A stretch of 64,000 nt of DNA. Origin: Alphaproteobacteria bacterium. Lineage in GTDB: Bacteria > Pseudomonadota > Alphaproteobacteria > GCA-2731375. The notes under the pieces were generated by a model. That model did no database searches. It was not told the DNA's origin and saw only the letters and a program-made list of their open reading frames with translations. Below, piece by piece: positions 7,407-56,995 of this stretch; within the stretch, counting starts at the first letter, position 1, and each line of letters begins with the position of its first letter. The position numbers were made by a program, and so were the translations under genes. The DNA lies in contig JAJFGG010000069.1 in the NCBI GenBank assembly GCA_021776235.1, positions 124,001-188,000 on the forward strand, given 5' to 3'.

Positions 7407-8654
7407 GTGCATTTTACAAAGAACAATATTTTCACAGCATCGGTGCTGCATGTGGTTATGGGTGCGGCAATGGCGGCTGGATCTGCCATACCGCTGGCGG
7501 ATATCGCATTTGCGGCGACACCCAGCGCTACCGTCGGTGTTAATCCGGTTGCTGTTGCCAGAGGCCAGCAACCCAACGCGCCTGCGGTGCCAGGGCAGCA
7601 AAGACCGCTGCAATTGGCCGCTTGTAACCCCTGCGGCAGCAAGAAGAAGGGTTGCGGTGCCTGTAATCCCTGCGCGGCCAAAAAGAAAGGCTGCGGCGCC
7701 TGTAACCCGTGCGCCGCCAAAAAGGCCTGCAGCCCTTGCAACCCCTGTGCCGCCAAGAACGCCTGCGGTGCCTGCAATCCCTGTAATCCTTGCGGCGGGG
7801 CTAGCGGCGGCACGTCCTCGAAATGCGTCATTCCGCGGCTGATCACGGCTGCTGCCTGCAATCCCTGCGCCGCCAAAAAGAAAGGCTGCGGCGCCTGCAA
7901 TCCCTGCGCTGCCAAAAAAGCCTGCAGCCCGTGCAATCCTTGTGCCGCCAAGAAGAAAGGTTGCGGTGCCTGCAATCCCTGTGCGGCGAAGAAAGCCTGC
8001 AGCCCGTGCAACCCCTGCGCCGCCAAAAAGAAGGGTTGTGGTGCCTGCAATCCCTGCGCGGCGAAGAAAGCCTGCAACCCCTGCAATCCTTGCGCCGCCA
8101 AGAAAGCCTGCGGGCCGTGCAATCCATGTGGCCCTTGTGGCGCCGGCGCCGTGGTGGAATTAGCCGCGGCTGAGGCCCGCAGCGCCTATGACTGCCTGGT
8201 CAAGGAACTTGCTGCCGGCTATGGCAAATCCGGCCTGGCGGTGGCGGGCTATTACAAGGATTGGAAAAACTACTCCAATCAGCCTTATGTCTCCGACACC
8301 CATGGCGGACGCTATGTCAACAATTTTGGCAATTCCCTGGCAGCCAGTTACAATAAGTATGAAAAAGCGGGCCGCATGCCGGTCGGCGCTTTGCTGGCCA
8401 AAGACAGCTTCGTTGCCAAGGGTAATGGCAAGTTGGCGGCGGGGCCTCTGTTCCTGATGGAAAAGATGGCTGCCGGCTTCAACGAGAATTCGGGTAATTG
8501 GCGGTACACCATGGTGTTGCCCAACGGCCAGGTTTTTGGCACCACAAATGGCGCTGGTTCGGCGAAGATGAAGTTCTGTTATGAATGCCATATGTCGGTG
8601 GCCGAGGAACAGGACAGCCTGATGTTCCTGCCCGAGGAATACCGCGCGCACTAA
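7407..8654 (+). CDS. Cys-rich CNPC-repeat protein fused to cytochrome P460-like c-heme domain
   Basis: A 415-aa secreted protein in three parts. Residues 1-43 are a signal peptide ending near IAFAATPSA. Residues about 73-245 are a low-complexity block with some 40 cysteines, built from CNPC units separated alternately by AAKKKGCGA and AAKKACSP. A short non-repetitive spacer ([16 protein letters not shown]) splits it. Residues about 255-415 resemble cytochrome P460/cytochrome c'-beta: the HGGRYVNNF and YEKAG segments, a strand-rich middle, and a terminal c-type heme site C391-Y-E-C394-H395. P460 enzymes act on hydroxylamine or nitric oxide. The repeat could bind copper or another soft metal, but that is inference. 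The gene is divergent from the SUMF1 gene and near nosRX, suggesting a periplasmic nitrogen-oxide or metal role. Confidence 0.85.
7623..8139 (+). repeat. In-gene tandem repeat encoding CNPC units
   Basis: Degenerate tandem repeat inside the P460 fusion gene. The basic unit is 12 or 13 codons; a 25-codon (75 bp) double unit recurs, clearest in the second block from 7855. The copies differ mainly at third codon positions (tgc/tgt, ccc/cct, gcg/gcc) while the CNPC residues stay fixed, so the protein pattern appears to be under selection. Confidence 0.9.
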
Positions 8655-10427: not shown

Positions 10428-10439
10428 CCCGTTAACGGG
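10428..10439. promoter_or_regulatory. 12-bp perfect palindrome, possible operator
   Basis: CCCGTTAACGGG lies 63 bp upstream of the kinase start codon in the gap after the MFS gene. It is a plausible operator for a dimeric regulator, but it is a single copy and no regulator gene sits beside it. Confidence 0.3.
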
Positions 10440-10545
10440 GCCATGGCGGCGCGGCGCGATGTGGGACATCGGGCAAGCCGCGCAACGCAGCCCAATGGCC
10501 TGGAAATCCGGTCAAATGGTTCAGGATAACCGCGACATACTCTCG

Positions 10546-11784
10546 TCATCGATGGACTTTTCGCACCGCCATGATGAAGCTGAGCAGCGAGCATAAGGCA
10601 ACAGCGGATAACAGGAGCAGGGGCGCGGCGTAGGATTCGCCGATCAGCCAGACCCACGAAATCAAGACCGGCGTGGCGGCCAGCGCCAGGGAGGACGCCA
10701 GGCCCAATAGTCCGTTGAGGGCGCCATAGGCTTGCGTCCCGACCAGTTCGGGCACGGCGAGGGCGCGGACGATGGTGATGATGCCAAGAGAGCCGCCGTA
10801 GAAAACCGGAAACAAATAGTTCAGGTTGTTGTCAGGCTGGGCCTTGGCAAGCAGCGCAAAACCAAGCAATAGAAAGCTGCCCGAAACCAAACCAGCCCTG
10901 CGGAAATCCAGCCACCTTTCGAATATGGTCACCACCACCCGCCCGGCCACCTGCATGGGTCCGATCAGGGCGATGGTGGCGACAATGGTTACCATGGCAA
11001 AGCCCCGTTCCAGCATCAGGGGAATGATATGCACGGTGACACCGGCCATGACGAAGGAGTTGGCCGTAAAACAGATACCAATCCACCACAGCACCGGGTT
11101 GTGCAGGGCATCGGCGACGGGGCCGGACTTGAGATCGATGGAGAATATTCTGGGCCGGTCGGATTGCCCGGCGCCCGGTACCCGTTCCAGGCGCAAGACA
11201 AAAGCGTGAATGGGCACACACACCACCAGCAGAATGACGCCAAGCAGAGTAAAACTGTCGCGCCAGTCGACCACATCAATCAGTAAGCTGATCAAAGGAA
11301 TAAATACCGTGCTGGCGAAACCGGCTATCAATGTCATCAAGGTGACGCCCTGACGCGCCCGGGTACCCAGGGTGGCAACCAGCACCGCGAAACCCGATGG
11401 ATACAGGGTTGCCGCCATGGCCAGGCCCAGACCGATCCAGACCGCGTAATAGGCGGTCAAAGTCTCGATTTGGGCCGCAATGAACAACAATGCCGCGCCC
11501 AAGGCAGACGCGCCGGTCATCAACCAGCGTCCGCCAAAGCGGTCCAGAACGCTGCCGGCACTGACCGAAAACAGGCCGACCACCAAAAGGGACAGGGTAA
11601 AGGCGCCGGTAATTTCCGCCTTGCTCCAATCGAACGCCGCCGTCAGGGGTCTGATGAAGACGGCAAAGCCATAGAACATGATGCCCCAGGATACGGTCTG
11701 CGCAATGGACAGCCAGATGACAAAGGACATGGCGCGGGAATCGCGCCACAACGAGGTTTCGGATAGATGCATGGCTTGCGGCAT
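10546..11784 (-). CDS. MFS transporter
   Basis: A 412-aa major facilitator permease with twelve predicted membrane helices. The first follows a short cytoplasmic N-terminus (IWLSIAQTVSWGIMFYGFAV). The loop after helix 2 has the MFS signature GSVLDRFGGRW, and a long central loop (about 190-215, VPGAGQSDRPR) separates the two six-helix halves. The helix pattern resembles the oxalate/formate and monocarboxylate-type MFS group, but the substrate cannot be stated. No adjacent metabolic gene is cotranscribed. The upstream 167 bp separate it divergently from the DsbA-like gene. Confidence 0.88.
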   Translation of the reverse strand: MPQAMHLSETSLWRDSRAMSFVIWLSIAQTVSWGIMFYGFAVFIRPLTAAFDWSKAEITGAFTLSLLVVGLFSVSAGSVLDRFGGRWLMTGASALGAALLFIAAQIETLTAYYAVWIGLGLAMAATLYPSGFAVLVATLGTRARQGVTLMTLIAGFASTVFIPLISLLIDVVDWRDSFTLLGVILLVVCVPIHAFVLRLERVPGAGQSDRPRIFSIDLKSGPVADALHNPVLWWIGICFTANSFVMAGVTVHIIPLMLERGFAMVTIVATIALIGPMQVAGRVVVTIFERWLDFRRAGLVSGSFLLLGFALLAKAQPDNNLNYLFPVFYGGSLGIITIVRALAVPELVGTQAYGALNGLLGLASSLALAATPVLISWVWLIGESYAAPLLLLSAVALCSLLSFIMAVRKVHR

Positions 11785-18193: not shown

Positions 18194-18457
18194 CTAGAGC
18201 ATTTCCGGGCTATTGTGGATCATTTGACCGCCTCCCAAGGCCCCGTGGGTAGGCGCGGTTTGCAGGTCGATGTGGGTATCGTCCAAAAACCGCAACGCCG
18301 CCACGGGGCCTTGGGAGGCGGCCTTCGGTGGCGACACTAAGCCATTCGGATGCGTTGCGCCACTTGCTCGATGTACCACATCGCGCTGCGCGTCGCGCCT
18401 ACCCGAATGGCTTAGGGACGCCATCAAATGACCCACATTAGCCCGGAAGTGCTCTAG
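18194..18457. repeat. Paired-hairpin repeat element A (264 bp)
   Basis: Bounded by 34-bp terminal inverted repeats, 18194-18227 and 18424-18457, with 3 mismatches, starting CTAGAGC and ending TTTGA. Inside are two hairpins. The first has perfect 21-bp arms (18228-18248 and 18301-18321). The second has 13-bp arms (CTAAGCCATTCGG and its complement). GGGTAGG follows the first arm, and CCTACCC precedes the last. The right terminal CTAG contains the TAG stop of the acyl-CoA dehydrogenase-like gene. No coding potential is seen. It has the look of a MITE, with element B its closest relative. Confidence 0.9.
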
Positions 18458-21460: not shown

Positions 21461-21725
21461 CTAGACCACGTTCACAGAGCATAGACCCGTTTGACCGTAC
21501 TTCCCAGCTTCGTGGCCAGGCGAAGGTTGCCGCGCGTGGTGGGACTACGGGCAAAACCTTCAACGACGCCACGGCGCTGGGACGCGCGGCCTTCGGTGGC
21601 GCGTGGAGGCCATTCGGATGCGTTGTTCTGCTTGCCCGTAGTCCCACTACGCGCTGCGCAAAACGCCTACCCGAATGACCTCCACACGCCATCAAACGGA
21701 TCTATGTTCTGTGAACGTGGTCTAG
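21461..21725. repeat. Paired-hairpin repeat element B (265 bp)
   Basis: Terminal inverted repeats of 34 bp with 2 mismatches (21461-21494, 21692-21725), CTAGACC outward and TTTGA inward. Two internal hairpins: CCCAGC..CGTGGC arms, and GTGGAGGCCATTCGG with its near complement. The motif GCGGCCTTCGGTGGCG (21586-21601) occurs at almost the same offset as in element A (18318-18333), as do GCCATTCGGATGCGTTG, CGCCTACCCGAATG and ACGCCATCAAA. The terminal CTAG contains the stop codon of the 145-aa membrane-protein gene. Confidence 0.9.
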
Positions 21726-54002: not shown

Positions 54003-54854
54003 ATGAACCGGCTTACCTATCTGGTTGCCCTGTTGGCCGTCCTGTTTGGGGTCGTGAATGCCCTGTTTGCCGAAGACGATGGCGTCCGCCGGCCCCGGCC
54101 GCCACCCTTGACCCCGGCACCGCGGCAGGCCGGACCGGGCGGCCCGACCATTGAAGTCGATGTGGGCCCCAAGGGTTCCAGCACCGGCACCGCCTTTGCC
54201 ATTACCGCCGATGGCTGGTGGCTCACGGCCCGCCATGTGGCACATGGCTGTGATGCCCTATGGGTCCAGACCGCGCCGCGAAAGGGTCTGCGGGCGACAG
54301 AGGTGCATCTGCATCCCAACGCTGATCTGGCGCTATTGCATACCCGTTCCGGCCGGGCACCCCTGCACCTGGCCAGCTTGGATCAAGGGGTGCCGCCGCG
54401 CGGGGAAAGCGGCTTTTCCATGGGCTACCCTCAGGGCCGGCCGGGCGATGTGCATGCCCGGGTAATCGGCCAGGCGCGGCTGCGATCAGTTGGCCGCTAT
54501 CGCATTAACGAGCCTATTCTGGCCTGGGCCGAGGTCTCTCGCCGGCCCAACGACCTGCCCGCCCTGGGCGGCCTGTCGGGTGGCCCTATGCTGGACGATC
54601 AGGGCCGGGTGGTCGGGGTTCTGGTGGCCTCGTCCAAGCGGCGGGGCCGGGTCATGACCACATCACAGGCATCGATCCATCAGCTATTGGCGCAATTTCC
54701 CGGGGTTCAAGGCCCCGTGGTCCAAGGCGCAGCTGGGGCGCTGGCGCGGCAGATCGACGCCGGCAGCTACCCAGTCCTGGGCACCTCGCTGCGGCGCGAC
54801 CTTACGGTGGCGAAAGTACTCTGCCAGGTGGGTCAACGCCGACGCCGGCCCTGA
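54003..54854 (+). CDS. Trypsin-like serine protease
   Basis: A 283-aa protease of the S1/HtrA-like fold. An N-terminal helix (LTYLVALLAVLFGVVNALF, residues 3-21) is a signal or anchor, so it acts in the periplasm or on its membrane. The triad residues are visible: His in LTARHVAHG (about 76-79), Asp in NADLALLHT, and Ser in LGGLSGGPMLDD. No PDZ domain follows. A basic C-terminus (RRDLTVAKVL..QRRRRP) ends the protein. Element C begins 29 bp past the stop. Confidence 0.9.
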   Translation: MNRLTYLVALLAVLFGVVNALFAEDDGVRRPRPPPLTPAPRQAGPGGPTIEVDVGPKGSSTGTAFAITADGWWLTARHVAHGCDALWVQTAPRKGLRATEVHLHPNADLALLHTRSGRAPLHLASLDQGVPPRGESGFSMGYPQGRPGDVHARVIGQARLRSVGRYRINEPILAWAEVSRRPNDLPALGGLSGGPMLDDQGRVVGVLVASSKRRGRVMTTSQASIHQLLAQFPGVQGPVVQGAAGALARQIDAGSYPVLGTSLRRDLTVAKVLCQVGQRRRRP

Positions 54855-54882
54855 CCCGGCTTGATGCCTGATCCATTGCCTT

Positions 54883-55142
54883 ATACCAAGGTGCGGTGAT
54901 AGAGACCCATATAGACGCTTTGCGAAGGTTTTCGGGTAGGAGCGCGCTGCGCCGTGGTACTGGTACCATAAGCTGCGCGGGACGCCGCCGAAAGCCTTCG
55001 CAAAGCGCCGAATTCGGTCGTTTAAGGGGCCCCGCGGTGGCGTCCAGAAAGCTTGACGGTACCCGTACCGCCGGCGCTTCCACTCCTACCCGAGGGGCCC
55101 CTGAAACGATCTATATGGGTCTCTATCACCGCACCTTGGTAT
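54883..55142. repeat. Paired-hairpin repeat element C (260 bp)
   Basis: Terminal inverted repeats of 33 bp, identical in sequence (54883-54915, 55110-55142), beginning ATACCAAGGTGCGGTG. Hairpin 1 has arms GCTTTGCGAAGGTTTTCGG and its complement (19 bp, 1 mismatch). Hairpin 2 has arms around AGGGGCCCC (19 bp, 2 mismatches). TTCGGGTAGG follows the first arm and CCTACCCG precedes the last, as in A and B. It lies between the convergent protease and transglycosylase genes. The terminal repeat differs in sequence from those of A and B. Confidence 0.9.
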
Positions 55143-55155
55143 TATTCTGTCAGAT

Positions 55156-56598
55156 CTATTTTGTTGTGGCTGCGTTGCGGTTATTCTGAATTTCTTCCAG
55201 CCGCTTATATGTTACGTAATACTTAAAAATGTTTCGAACATAAATAACCGGCTCGCGGCTGATGGTCTTCGCTGCGGCGATTTCGACATTACCGAACCAC
55301 TTATTCGGGTTAAGGCCCATCGCTTTCGCCTTCCTCCGTGCTTTTGATGTTTTTCGGGGCCCGGCGTTGTATGCCGCAAAGGAAAGCAATATCTTGTTTC
55401 TTGTATCTATGTCGTCCGACGCAAAATACCGCGAGCGTAAAAATCGAAGATATTTAACCCCGGCATGGATGTTTTGTTCGATTTTATGAATATCAGGGAT
55501 ATTTACATTCCGGTCTGACGCGGTACTTGGCATGACTTGCATTACGCCAACGGCGCCTACATGGCTTCTCTTGCTCTGATCCAGTGTTGATTCCTGGTAA
55601 CCCTGCGCCGCGATCATCAACCAATCGAAATTGAAGCGATCGGAATATTCCCGAATGTATCCAACCGCCGCACGGTATTTTTTCCGGCTTTCCGCGGACC
55701 AGGAATTTTTCATCCAATTTGTACTTCCCAGATACCGGTTATACAGAATGTTTCCCATCAAGGTGCCCTTCTTGAACTCACCGGCAAATTTATTCACTAT
55801 TTGCAACAACTTAGGGCTTTCCTTTCGAATGGCCACAGCGATTTTTCCGCCATCGCTGACCGACAACTTTTCATGCACCGTGATATTTTTGAAAACTTTC
55901 TGCCAAAGCTGTGCTTTGTGGCTATCAACGATGATCGCCGGGATGAGGCCGACATTGACCATGTCGAGTAAATCGTAGTCTTCCAAATTTTCATCTACTT
56001 TGTGTATTGGTATTGGCGTCTTGCCGTTCTTTGTTCTCTTATTATTTAGTTTTACCAGATGTTCGTAATAGCTACTGGATTCCCGAATGTGTACGCCTGT
56101 TTTTGATAAATCACTCAGTGTTTTGATATTCTTCTTGCCGGGACCGCTAACAATTAGCTCCTTCACATTGGTAAGCATGGGTTTTGAAAAATCAACCAAT
56201 TGCGACCGCGCCGGTGTTATCGTCAGATTGGCAGCGGCGATATCACCTCTGCCTTCGATAAGAAAAGGTAAGATTTTGTCTCTTGGTACGGGAATGAGCA
56301 CGACGCTGATCGGGCGGCCTCTTTTGCCGAAATTCTTGTTCAGGCGTTTTTCGAAAGAACGCGCACCTTCGACGAGTAAACCGTTTTGATCGATACCGTT
56401 ATAAGAGAAGAACAGCGGGTTATAGGCTGTCAAAATTCGAATAAAGCCACGCTTCAGGATCCCGTCCAGGTCACCCTTCCAGGGTATAATCGCCGCATCC
56501 GAAAGGACTGAATCTTCGGCGTTGTTGGACCCGGCCGAGGCGCTCGCTGATGCCGCAAAGGTTGCCGCTATTGCGGCCATAAGAAGATTTCGTAGCAT
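55156..56598 (-). CDS. MltF-like membrane-bound lytic transglycosylase
   Basis: From ATG 56598 about 480 aa. A signal peptide (LLMAAIAATFAASASASAG) is followed by a solute-binding-protein domain of family 3 (about 45-300; GFIRILTAYNPLFFSYNG) that senses a peptide or sugar. An SLT lysozyme-like domain comes last, with the catalytic Glu in GYQESTLDQ, the MQVMPSTA core and IHKIEQNIHAGVKYLRFL. This is the MltF layout. The gene is noticeably more AT-rich than its neighbours, with many tta, aaa and ata codons, so it may have been acquired. The annotated frame opens at 56682, but its first 28 residues look non-coding. Confidence 0.88.
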   Translation of the reverse strand: MLRNLLMAAIAATFAASASASAGSNNAEDSVLSDAAIIPWKGDLDGILKRGFIRILTAYNPLFFSYNGIDQNGLLVEGARSFEKRLNKNFGKRGRPISVVLIPVPRDKILPFLIEGRGDIAAANLTITPARSQLVDFSKPMLTNVKELIVSGPGKKNIKTLSDLSKTGVHIRESSSYYEHLVKLNNKRTKNGKTPIPIHKVDENLEDYDLLDMVNVGLIPAIIVDSHKAQLWQKVFKNITVHEKLSVSDGGKIAVAIRKESPKLLQIVNKFAGEFKKGTLMGNILYNRYLGSTNWMKNSWSAESRKKYRAAVGYIREYSDRFNFDWLMIAAQGYQESTLDQSKRSHVGAVGVMQVMPSTASDRNVNIPDIHKIEQNIHAGVKYLRFLRSRYFASDDIDTRNKILLSFAAYNAGPRKTSKARRKAKAMGLNPNKWFGNVEIAAAKTISREPVIYVRNIFKYYVTYKRLEEIQNNRNAATTK

Positions 56599-56995
56599 GT
56601 TGGCCCTATGGTTACACCGCTTTGCCGACGAGGCGCGGCAAGCGTCGAGTGGTCGATTTCGAAATCGCGACGCTGAAATCAAGAAATCTGCACCTGTTTG
56701 ATCGCCCGCTCTTCCATTTTCATTTCGTTCGCGTCAGATCATTTGCCTGGAGAATTCATTATATCCATGCAAGGCAACCATGACAGCTTCCCGTGCTGCT
56801 GTTTTCGCCGGCCTTGCATCACCCGGTAATCGGCCAAATTGAACGACAGTCTCAAATGACCTTGTCTTTCCTGTTCCGGGTCAAGCCGGAACAGGTTTGC
56901 CGGAATTCATCTGGACAGAGAACCCAAGGCGCCGCCAACAAGGCATCAGCAGCATTCGTTCATGCCACCCCGCGGGCCAAACGGGTGGCCGGGGA
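56599..56995. other. Gap between the transglycosylase and FNR genes
   Basis: A 397-bp gap without a supported gene. A perfect 10-bp hairpin (56870-56879 with 56886-56895, CCTGTTCCGG arms and a 6-nt GTCAAG loop) is the only strong structure. It may be a terminator or an operator, but no clear T-run is attached on either strand. Confidence 0.4.

Follow-up and report, generated by a model that had tools for sequence, protein, structure and literature searches.

Element C of an alphaproteobacterial genome: probably a MITE-type element with a conserved two-arm core under exchangeable tips

Element C is probably a non-autonomous transposable element of the MITE type that consists of two modules, exchangeable tips and a conserved two-arm core. 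Across the family to which it belongs, the core looks like the inherited part and the tips look exchangeable. The element was analyzed in a 64,000-nucleotide stretch of contig JAJFGG010000069.1 (assembly GCA_021776235.1), here called the window, and positions refer to the window unless a locus is named.

Structure of element C

Element C runs from TACC to GGTA over 258 bp (54884-55141). At its ends, all 33 nt of 54883-54915 recur in 55110-55142 as the exact reverse complement, and this pair ranks first among the longest inverted repeats of the window. An earlier note on this DNA had described a perfect 33-bp terminal repeat unlike those of two other elements, A and B; this was confirmed, and the outer repeats of A and B do differ from it. 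Pairing breaks at position 34, with looser complementarity reaching to 60 nt (82%). In the predicted fold, the two repeats are the left (+ strand) and right (- strand) halves of an outer stem. TTA stands on the left (54881-54883) and on the right (55142-55144), and was taken as the target-site duplication from the sequence and the 3-mers seen family-wide.

Inside the stem lie a left arm (54916-55007, + strand, bounds from the fold), which is a hairpin with a conserved internal loop and an apical hairpin; a predicted mini-hairpin, CCGAATTCGG, that separates the arms (55008-55017); and a right arm (55018-55109, - strand), homologous to the left arm by fold and alignment. In alignment A1, described below, the conserved internal-loop strand is GGGTAGGAG at 54934-54942 of the left arm (+ strand) and its counterpart lies at 55083-55091 of the right arm (- strand; CTCCTACCC on the + strand). 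R1, a covariance model of the arm built on the 46 arms of A1, matches C at 54915-55008 (+, 75.8 bits) and 55018-55110 (-, 69.5 bits). Both arms of C are among the 46 rows of R1.

C contains no transposase gene; two ORFs run across it (93 and 97 aa), and both are mechanical. It sits between convergent genes, a trypsin/HtrA-like serine protease gene (54003-54854) and an MltF-like transglycosylase gene (55156-56682), each named from a match below the curated cut-off.

Homologous arms and a common predicted fold

The layout of C recurs in the window with different ends. Element A (CTAG...CTAG, 18194-18457, with CTAG at 18194-18197 and 18454-18457) has R1 arms at 18228-18321 (+) and 18329-18423 (-). 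Element B (CTAG...CTAG, 21461-21725, with CTAG at 21461-21464 and 21722-21725) has a third end type and R1 arms at 21495-21589 (+) and 21597-21691 (-). None of these four arms is a row of R1. A and B are multicopy families of their own in the same genome, with copy numbers that are lower bounds, and the full copies of B among the matches listed are 94-97% identical to it. A fourth, decayed member, one arm and then an A-like right end, was placed at 10428-10511 on the + strand (R1, 42.5 bits, and sequence), in the stretch 10428-10555. Elsewhere in the window, 7619-8129 holds tandem 36-39-bp repeats in codon phase with a cysteine-rich unit, read by eye.

Left arms and reverse-complemented right arms are homologous in types A, B, and C. 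This can be seen in A1, which holds 46 of 48 arms (both arms of L137 were left out) from 24 elements chosen among 67. An arm is usually 91-98 nt long (about 94), the two arms are inverted, and the outer stem is about 33 bp. In each arm, the basal and inner stems vary and the internal loop between them is conserved, with AGG facing mostly GAC or AAC. Beyond the inner stem, an apical hairpin lies near CGATG..CATCG. Four columns (AG...AC) are invariant in 46/46 arms. Two-sided changes in at least one of the 46 arms were found for 22 of 24 consensus pairs, and no covariation was seen in the arms of B.

A common four-part DNA fold was predicted in 63 of 65 distinct copies (37/38 C, 17/17 A, and 9/10 B). 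The predicted shape is an outer stem of 29-34 pairs, a left arm, a mini-hairpin, which is not always predicted, and a right arm. Compared with 200 dinucleotide shuffles, the DNA-folding z-scores were -13.3 for C, -10.5 for B, and -14.9 for A. The suggestion that C represents a second subfamily with the same layout was borne out and can be extended, since A, B, and C share homologous arms as well as the predicted four-part fold.

Of 385 alphaproteobacterial genomes, at least 45 have an R1 match at E<=1e-4, a lower bound since 10 candidates were scored in each. A second arm, which is not part of the model, adjoins the first on the opposite strand in 24 of 30 R1 loci, one of which (L258) is a training copy; four of the six loci without a second arm are at contig edges. 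Directly outside the arms, a further stem of 32-38 nt is present in 21 of the 24 loci with both arms. The three others are L257 (nothing aligned, despite A-like letters at the left), L280, and L281 (contig edge).

Paired stems could also be selected by a role at the RNA level, such as mRNA processing, attenuation, or a small RNA. With RNA parameters, the best fold of C is one long hairpin, and this RNA fold is very stable (z -13.0). C also lies between convergent genes, and for ERIC and NEMIS an action on mRNA is reported (PMC2229807). However, at both-strand pairs with a Watson-Crick consensus, 83 G-T cells versus 60 A-C cells give no clear strand preference, which speaks for DNA rather than RNA. 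A larger G-T excess was mostly an artefact because it reversed on folding the other strand. In addition, dyad symmetry makes both strands alike, and Rfam returned no family at its gathering score over 54500-55500. An RNA-level role is unlikely.

Copies and distribution

The 33-bp end does not occur only once, as 82 matches with up to 3 mismatches were counted in the element's own genome. At the same threshold, the C-type end pattern matched in 8 of 12 genomes, while the reversed-pattern control gave 0 matches. At up to 1 mismatch, the distribution over the class was patchy (6 of 385 genomes, with one control match).

Whole-length matches to C, with part of the candidates scored, were found in 13 of 61 genomes. 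These are its own genome, all ten others of the genus listed, G011 (same family, another genus), and G021 (another family). Among the copies listed over their whole length, those of the own genome share 73-77% identity with C; the closest relative among the candidates scored, from another species of the genus, shares 91%. Closer copies may have been missed because 12 of 69 first-look candidates were scored in the own genome. Since only part of the candidates was scored in each genome (12 for C, 40 for A, and 40 for B, against 10 in the R1 search of the class), the copy numbers of A, B, and C are lower bounds. The C family is multicopy and dispersed, as a MITE family should be.

Contigs of named genomes were scanned for C-type ends (43 stretches). 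Rhizobium (L119), Afifella (L121), Roseibium (L125), and several MAGs have complete C-ended elements, and two places lie on an Agrobacterium plasmid. Single C-type ends with no arm by R1 at E<=1 were seen in Pararhizobium (L133 and L145) and Labrenzia (L135), and one with no arm at E<=0.01 in an Erysipelotrichaceae MAG (L112). These four loci were excluded from the element count.

C-type ends were also paired, allowing up to 5 mismatches per end and spacings of 40-8000 bp. In the loci examined, 60 of 91 pairs were spaced 250-269 bp, with some places counted twice. Smaller C-ended forms measure about 50, 90, and 150-170 bp. One of the smallest, in the own genome (L154:321-374, contig C116), is a 54-bp perfect palindrome of two C-type ends with nothing between them. 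It has the end letters of C itself (1 difference in 27) and TTA on both sides, and can be read as a product of deletion or as an empty shell able to receive a core.

Target duplications and insertion sites

The 38 distinct C-ended copies come from the own genome, its relatives, and other alphaproteobacteria (46 listed copies minus 8 that are the same sequences read the other way). In 32 of them, the flanking 3-mers on the two sides are identical direct repeats. The identical triplets are 17 TAA/TAA, 14 TTA/TTA, and 1 TGA/TGA. The triplets differ in the other 6 copies, and in L007 (TCA/TGA) they are inverted. TAA/TTA, the outcome expected from a palindrome extended by one step, was seen in 0 copies. 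C has the short length, terminal inverted repeats (33/33 bp), and target-site duplication of a MITE. In the other two families, CTAG is found at both ends in 6 of 17 A copies and 9 of 10 B copies.

The direct target duplications and long terminal inverted repeats point to a double-strand transposase. There are two target types, TWA for TACC ends and CTAG for the ends of A and B and the IS1380-like ends, which suggests two or more helpers. A different enzyme would be expected if the arms were REP/REPIN-like, that is, outward GTAG-tagged hairpins moved by a RAYT (HUH, single-strand) with the outer palindrome secondary. In favor of this, a GGTAGG tag stands in head-head order at the foot of an inner hairpin in many arms, and Y1_Tnp has 4 matches in the own genome. 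REP dimers of A. variabilis and H. neapolitanus are also described as regularly enclosed by long palindromes (PMC3733652). However, the tag varies (GTAGG, CTAGG, GCAGG, CAAGG), with GTAGG in most A and C arms and other letters elsewhere. GTAGG[AC]GCG is absent at the 4 own-genome Y1_Tnp loci, where ten 1-mismatch sites were judged to be chance, and an R1 arm is present at 1 of the 4 (L256), which has a C-like end as well. The duplications and repeats also favor a double-strand transposase, and we consider movement of C by a RAYT improbable. The L256 locus, with its Y1 (RAYT-like) match, also has an ORF (L256:2083-2886) overlapping a fragment of a C-like element, whose arm is at 2745-2837.

The insertion site of C was compared with 10 other genomes of the genus. 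Downstream of the best-matching gene, the 700 nt inspected (230 in one genome) contained no C-type end. No movement was seen, and because the stretches that follow the orthologues differ, the sites do not count as clean empty ones. In G010 (L240), a different AT-rich palindrome with TAGAGCA...TGCTCTA ends stands where C would be.

The A tips were the subject of some further observations. The pattern TAGAGCANNTCSSGGCTA has 134 sites in the own genome at up to 1 mismatch (control, 1). Of these, 20 apparently unpaired sites were read; at least two (L219 and L223) have the form CTAG-12 nt-CTAG and resemble a scar left by excision or deletion, and in several more the sequence ends abruptly near the inner CTA. 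Read inside-out, the A tip (L219, L220, L221, and other A ends) contains TAGCCCGGAA, which, with its orientation reversed, resembles the beginning of the IS1380 end (TAGCCCGGATTT).

Near-perfect ends within divergent copies

The identical ends of C had been taken by the earlier note to indicate recent activity or conversion. Within a copy, non-Watson-Crick pairs make up 4.1% of the outer stem in group C1, 4.9% in C2, 5.9% in A, and 3.3% in B. When halves of different copies are compared, the mismatch is 11.4%, 17.6%, 11.2%, and 6.0%, respectively (C1 and C2 omit L119, L125, L143, and L121). In all four groups, 0 of 1000 shuffles, which ignore relatedness, gave a within-copy mismatch as low. 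The arms follow the same pattern in C1, C2, and A, and not in B. Near-perfect ends are thus normal for the family, as within-copy mismatch is low despite divergence between copies.

A very recent move of C would agree with its identical ends and intact target duplication, and C was not at the same site in the 10 diverged species of the genus examined. However, many divergent copies are also near-perfect at their ends, and the closest relative of C among the candidates scored is only 91% identical, so a very recent move is unlikely and the claim of recent activity was not upheld. Conversion fared better, as the stem mismatch data agree with homogenization of the ends, although selection for pairing predicts the same pattern. 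Hairpin-templated correction and selection on pairing would both give matched stems.

Search for a helper

No insertion sequence with the tips of A, B, or C was found among own-genome transposase loci, end pairs, plasmids, or IMG/VR. The own genome has 3 matches to PF01609 and 1 to PF13358; L100 and L102 have other ends, and L101 and L103 have no clear ends. It also has one short PF13701 match. L103 was considered as the insertion sequence of C, as one C-type end lies about 1.5 kb from its DDE_3 match. It was rejected as a lone end because two other ORFs intervene and R1 finds no arm. A short insertion sequence at L102:1076-1926 (contig C157) matches DDE_Tnp_1, is bounded by perfect ends of 22 bp, TCTAGGGTCTGTGGACATTTAG, and apparently occupies a CTAG target.

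Among the end pairs listed, those over 300 bp apart are a 372-bp pair (one place, two loci), a 499-bp pair, and a weak 2,552-bp pair. In 20 own-genome regions where the partner of a C-type end was missing or very close, partners were found only at element size or less. The C tips gave 0 matches in IMG/VR. Two other tips matched 2 and 8 stretches there, which are armless and were taken as chance. Plasmid searches with the A, B, C, and GGAGCCTG tips returned 2, 2, 3, and 3 records, all weak. The record examined, a Sinorhizobium americanum plasmid that matched the C tip, carries an arm (30.4 bits).

Tips, the IS1380 match, and apparent modularity

The tips outside the arms are unrelated to each other (TACCAAGG, CTAGAGC, CTAGCCCGSATTTCTCAC, YTAGGAGCCTGTCTGAG, TAGTACCCCC, and others), and one type is tied to a known insertion sequence. 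The tip CTAGCCCGCATTTCTCAC is found at both ends of L268 and at one end of L265. It also bounds, at both ends, 1.66-kb elements on plasmids of Pseudomonas putida, Stutzerimonas, and Bradyrhizobium. The inner gene is annotated as IS1380 family in the P. putida and Stutzerimonas elements, and the translation of the Bradyrhizobium element has IS1380-like pieces recognized by eye. The one protein tested, from Stutzerimonas, matches PF13701 with E 1.4e-153. A second tip, CTAGCCCGGATTTCTCAC, is at one end of L267. It also bounds an IS1380 of G070 on both sides, and L279, the four-armed element of G070 itself, carries a tip that agrees with CTAGCCCGGATTTCTCAC at 15 of 18 positions. Only L268 has the exact 18-nt tip at both ends; L265 and L267 have it at one end, and the first letters of their other end are altered. 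Ends in common with an autonomous insertion sequence, another MITE feature, are present at both ends of L268 and one end of L265 and L267, and the searches above gave no such insertion sequence for the tips of A, B, or C. In C, TACC ends and a TTA duplication stand in place of the IS1380 terminal repeat and the CTAG target.

Taken singly, the plasmid matches to the tip have E values of 0.4-1, and their weight comes from their location at both ends of IS1380 elements. Four of the 7 plasmid records with the tip were examined: three have the tip twice and are IS1380-like, and a Nostoc record has it once with no IS1380. PF13701 was sought in 33 genomes that bear elements (G001 and 32 of the 45 with an arm) and is present in 18 of them. 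G291 and G300, which have IS1380-like tips, gave no PF13701 match, and G376 gave a fragment only. R1 found no arm at E<=0.1 in the IS1380 loci (30 PF13701 loci and 3 plasmid loci), where the best score was 14.8 bits (E 0.18).

A maximum likelihood tree was built from 43 cores, of which 42 are different (L042 and L258 are one copy), with L271, L278, L280, and L281 omitted. It needs 5 changes between TACC-ended and TAG-ended cores. Holding the 19 TACC-ended cores as one clade was rejected with p-AU 2.9e-5 (1.3e-4 without five long rows); these p-values are optimistic because paired columns are not independent. When ten chosen TACC rows are set against seven A/B-like rows, one split fits, with support of 97/98. 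The unrelated tips, the IS1380 identity, and the rejected TACC clade together make the core and the ends look modular.

Tip diversity could also be old divergence. One ancestral element would then have diversified without any swap of ends, the tips drifting along with their transposases until homologous tips became saturated. All tips stand on a stem of nearly constant length, most start with TA or CTAG, one tip type alone is tied to a known insertion sequence, and the starred branches of the core tree force only 1 tip change. On the other side, distant cores (those of Rhizobium L119, Afifella L121, G092, and C) carry the TACC tip together with its TGATAGGGACCCAT block, a single clade for that tip was rejected at the p-AU given above, the 3-bp TWA duplication is unlike the CTAG target, and one tip type is that of IS1380 over 18 nt. 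We regard descent without swaps as possible, short of probable.

Proposed mechanism

For C as a two-module MITE, we propose the following. The first module would be the outer stem of about 33 bp, whose tips may serve as terminal inverted repeats for a transposase acting in trans. This module would set the target, TWA with a 3-bp duplication for TACC ends and CTAG for A, B, and IS1380-like ends. The second module would be the core, two inverted homologous arms usually with a mini-hairpin between them, which is conserved in many Alphaproteobacteria and occurs joined to different tips. The DDE transposase of whichever insertion sequence has matching tips would excise and insert the element. We infer this transposition in trans for C, whose helper was not found in the searches made.

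When single-stranded, during replication or excision, the element may fold into a four-armed hairpin, and we favor reading the arms as a single-strand structure used at one of these steps. The folded hairpin would let one end be copied from the other, so that the ends could stay perfect, and the core may persist by being refitted with new insertion sequence ends. A stronger version, which we put forward tentatively, is that the family is a modular hyperparasite. Its core would repeatedly acquire the terminal inverted repeats of unrelated insertion sequence families (IS1380 and others), and the arms would be a single-strand recognition or copying signal that enables exchange and correction of the ends.

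Relation to known elements and significance

C works like a MITE, and every MITE feature tested was found except an identified insertion sequence with its ends. Like the bacterial MITEs Correia/NEMIS, RUP, ERIC, and MITEPye1, the four-armed family is small, transposase-free, multicopy, and foldable, with terminal inverted repeats. For RUP and MITEPye1, terminal inverted repeats in common with an insertion sequence are described in PMC2229807 and PMC11578231. In the description given there, the two ends of these MITEs form a stem-loop; the four-armed family has in addition a conserved two-arm core, which occurs beneath several unrelated tip types.

GTAG/CGTC REP dimers also have two inverted GTAG-like-tagged hairpins inside a longer palindrome, and REP dimers within long palindromes of A. 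variabilis and H. neapolitanus are the nearest printed precedent found (PMC3733652). REP units there are 20-40 bp, in contrast to arms of about 94 nt with variable basal stems and a fixed geometry. The four-armed family further differs from REP dimers in having terminal inverted repeats with target duplication and no RAYT association at the own-genome Y1_Tnp loci. The CIR repeats of Caulobacter and other alphaproteobacteria likewise have two arms and a linker; PMC2229807 gives them about 110 bp and a GANTC at the arm loop, and contrasts them with end-stem elements. C was rejected as a CIR, as GANTC is depleted (19 versus 62 expected from composition in 65 copies, and none in C) and C is about 260 bp with an end stem, which the CIR of about 110 bp is without. 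The likeness to IS1380 is an 18-nt tip including CTAG, found at both ends of L268 and one end of L265 and L267. In contrast, the four-armed element has no transposase, the insertion sequence has no arm, and the TACC tip and 3-bp duplication of C differ from those of IS1380. RIME are palindromic mosaic intergenic repeats of Rhizobiaceae, and their likeness to the four-armed family lies in that description. In the literature searched, which mostly excluded subscription papers, we recognized no description of the four-armed family or of such end exchange.

The internal loop of the arm is a testable target for a DNA-binding activity in Alphaproteobacteria, and A, B, and C in one genome make a natural assay system with two target specificities. 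MITEs are usually regarded as decayed copies of one insertion sequence, to which they remain bound. If a conserved core does stand under unrelated tips, small elements would be able to change helpers, which would explain how they outlive particular insertion sequences.
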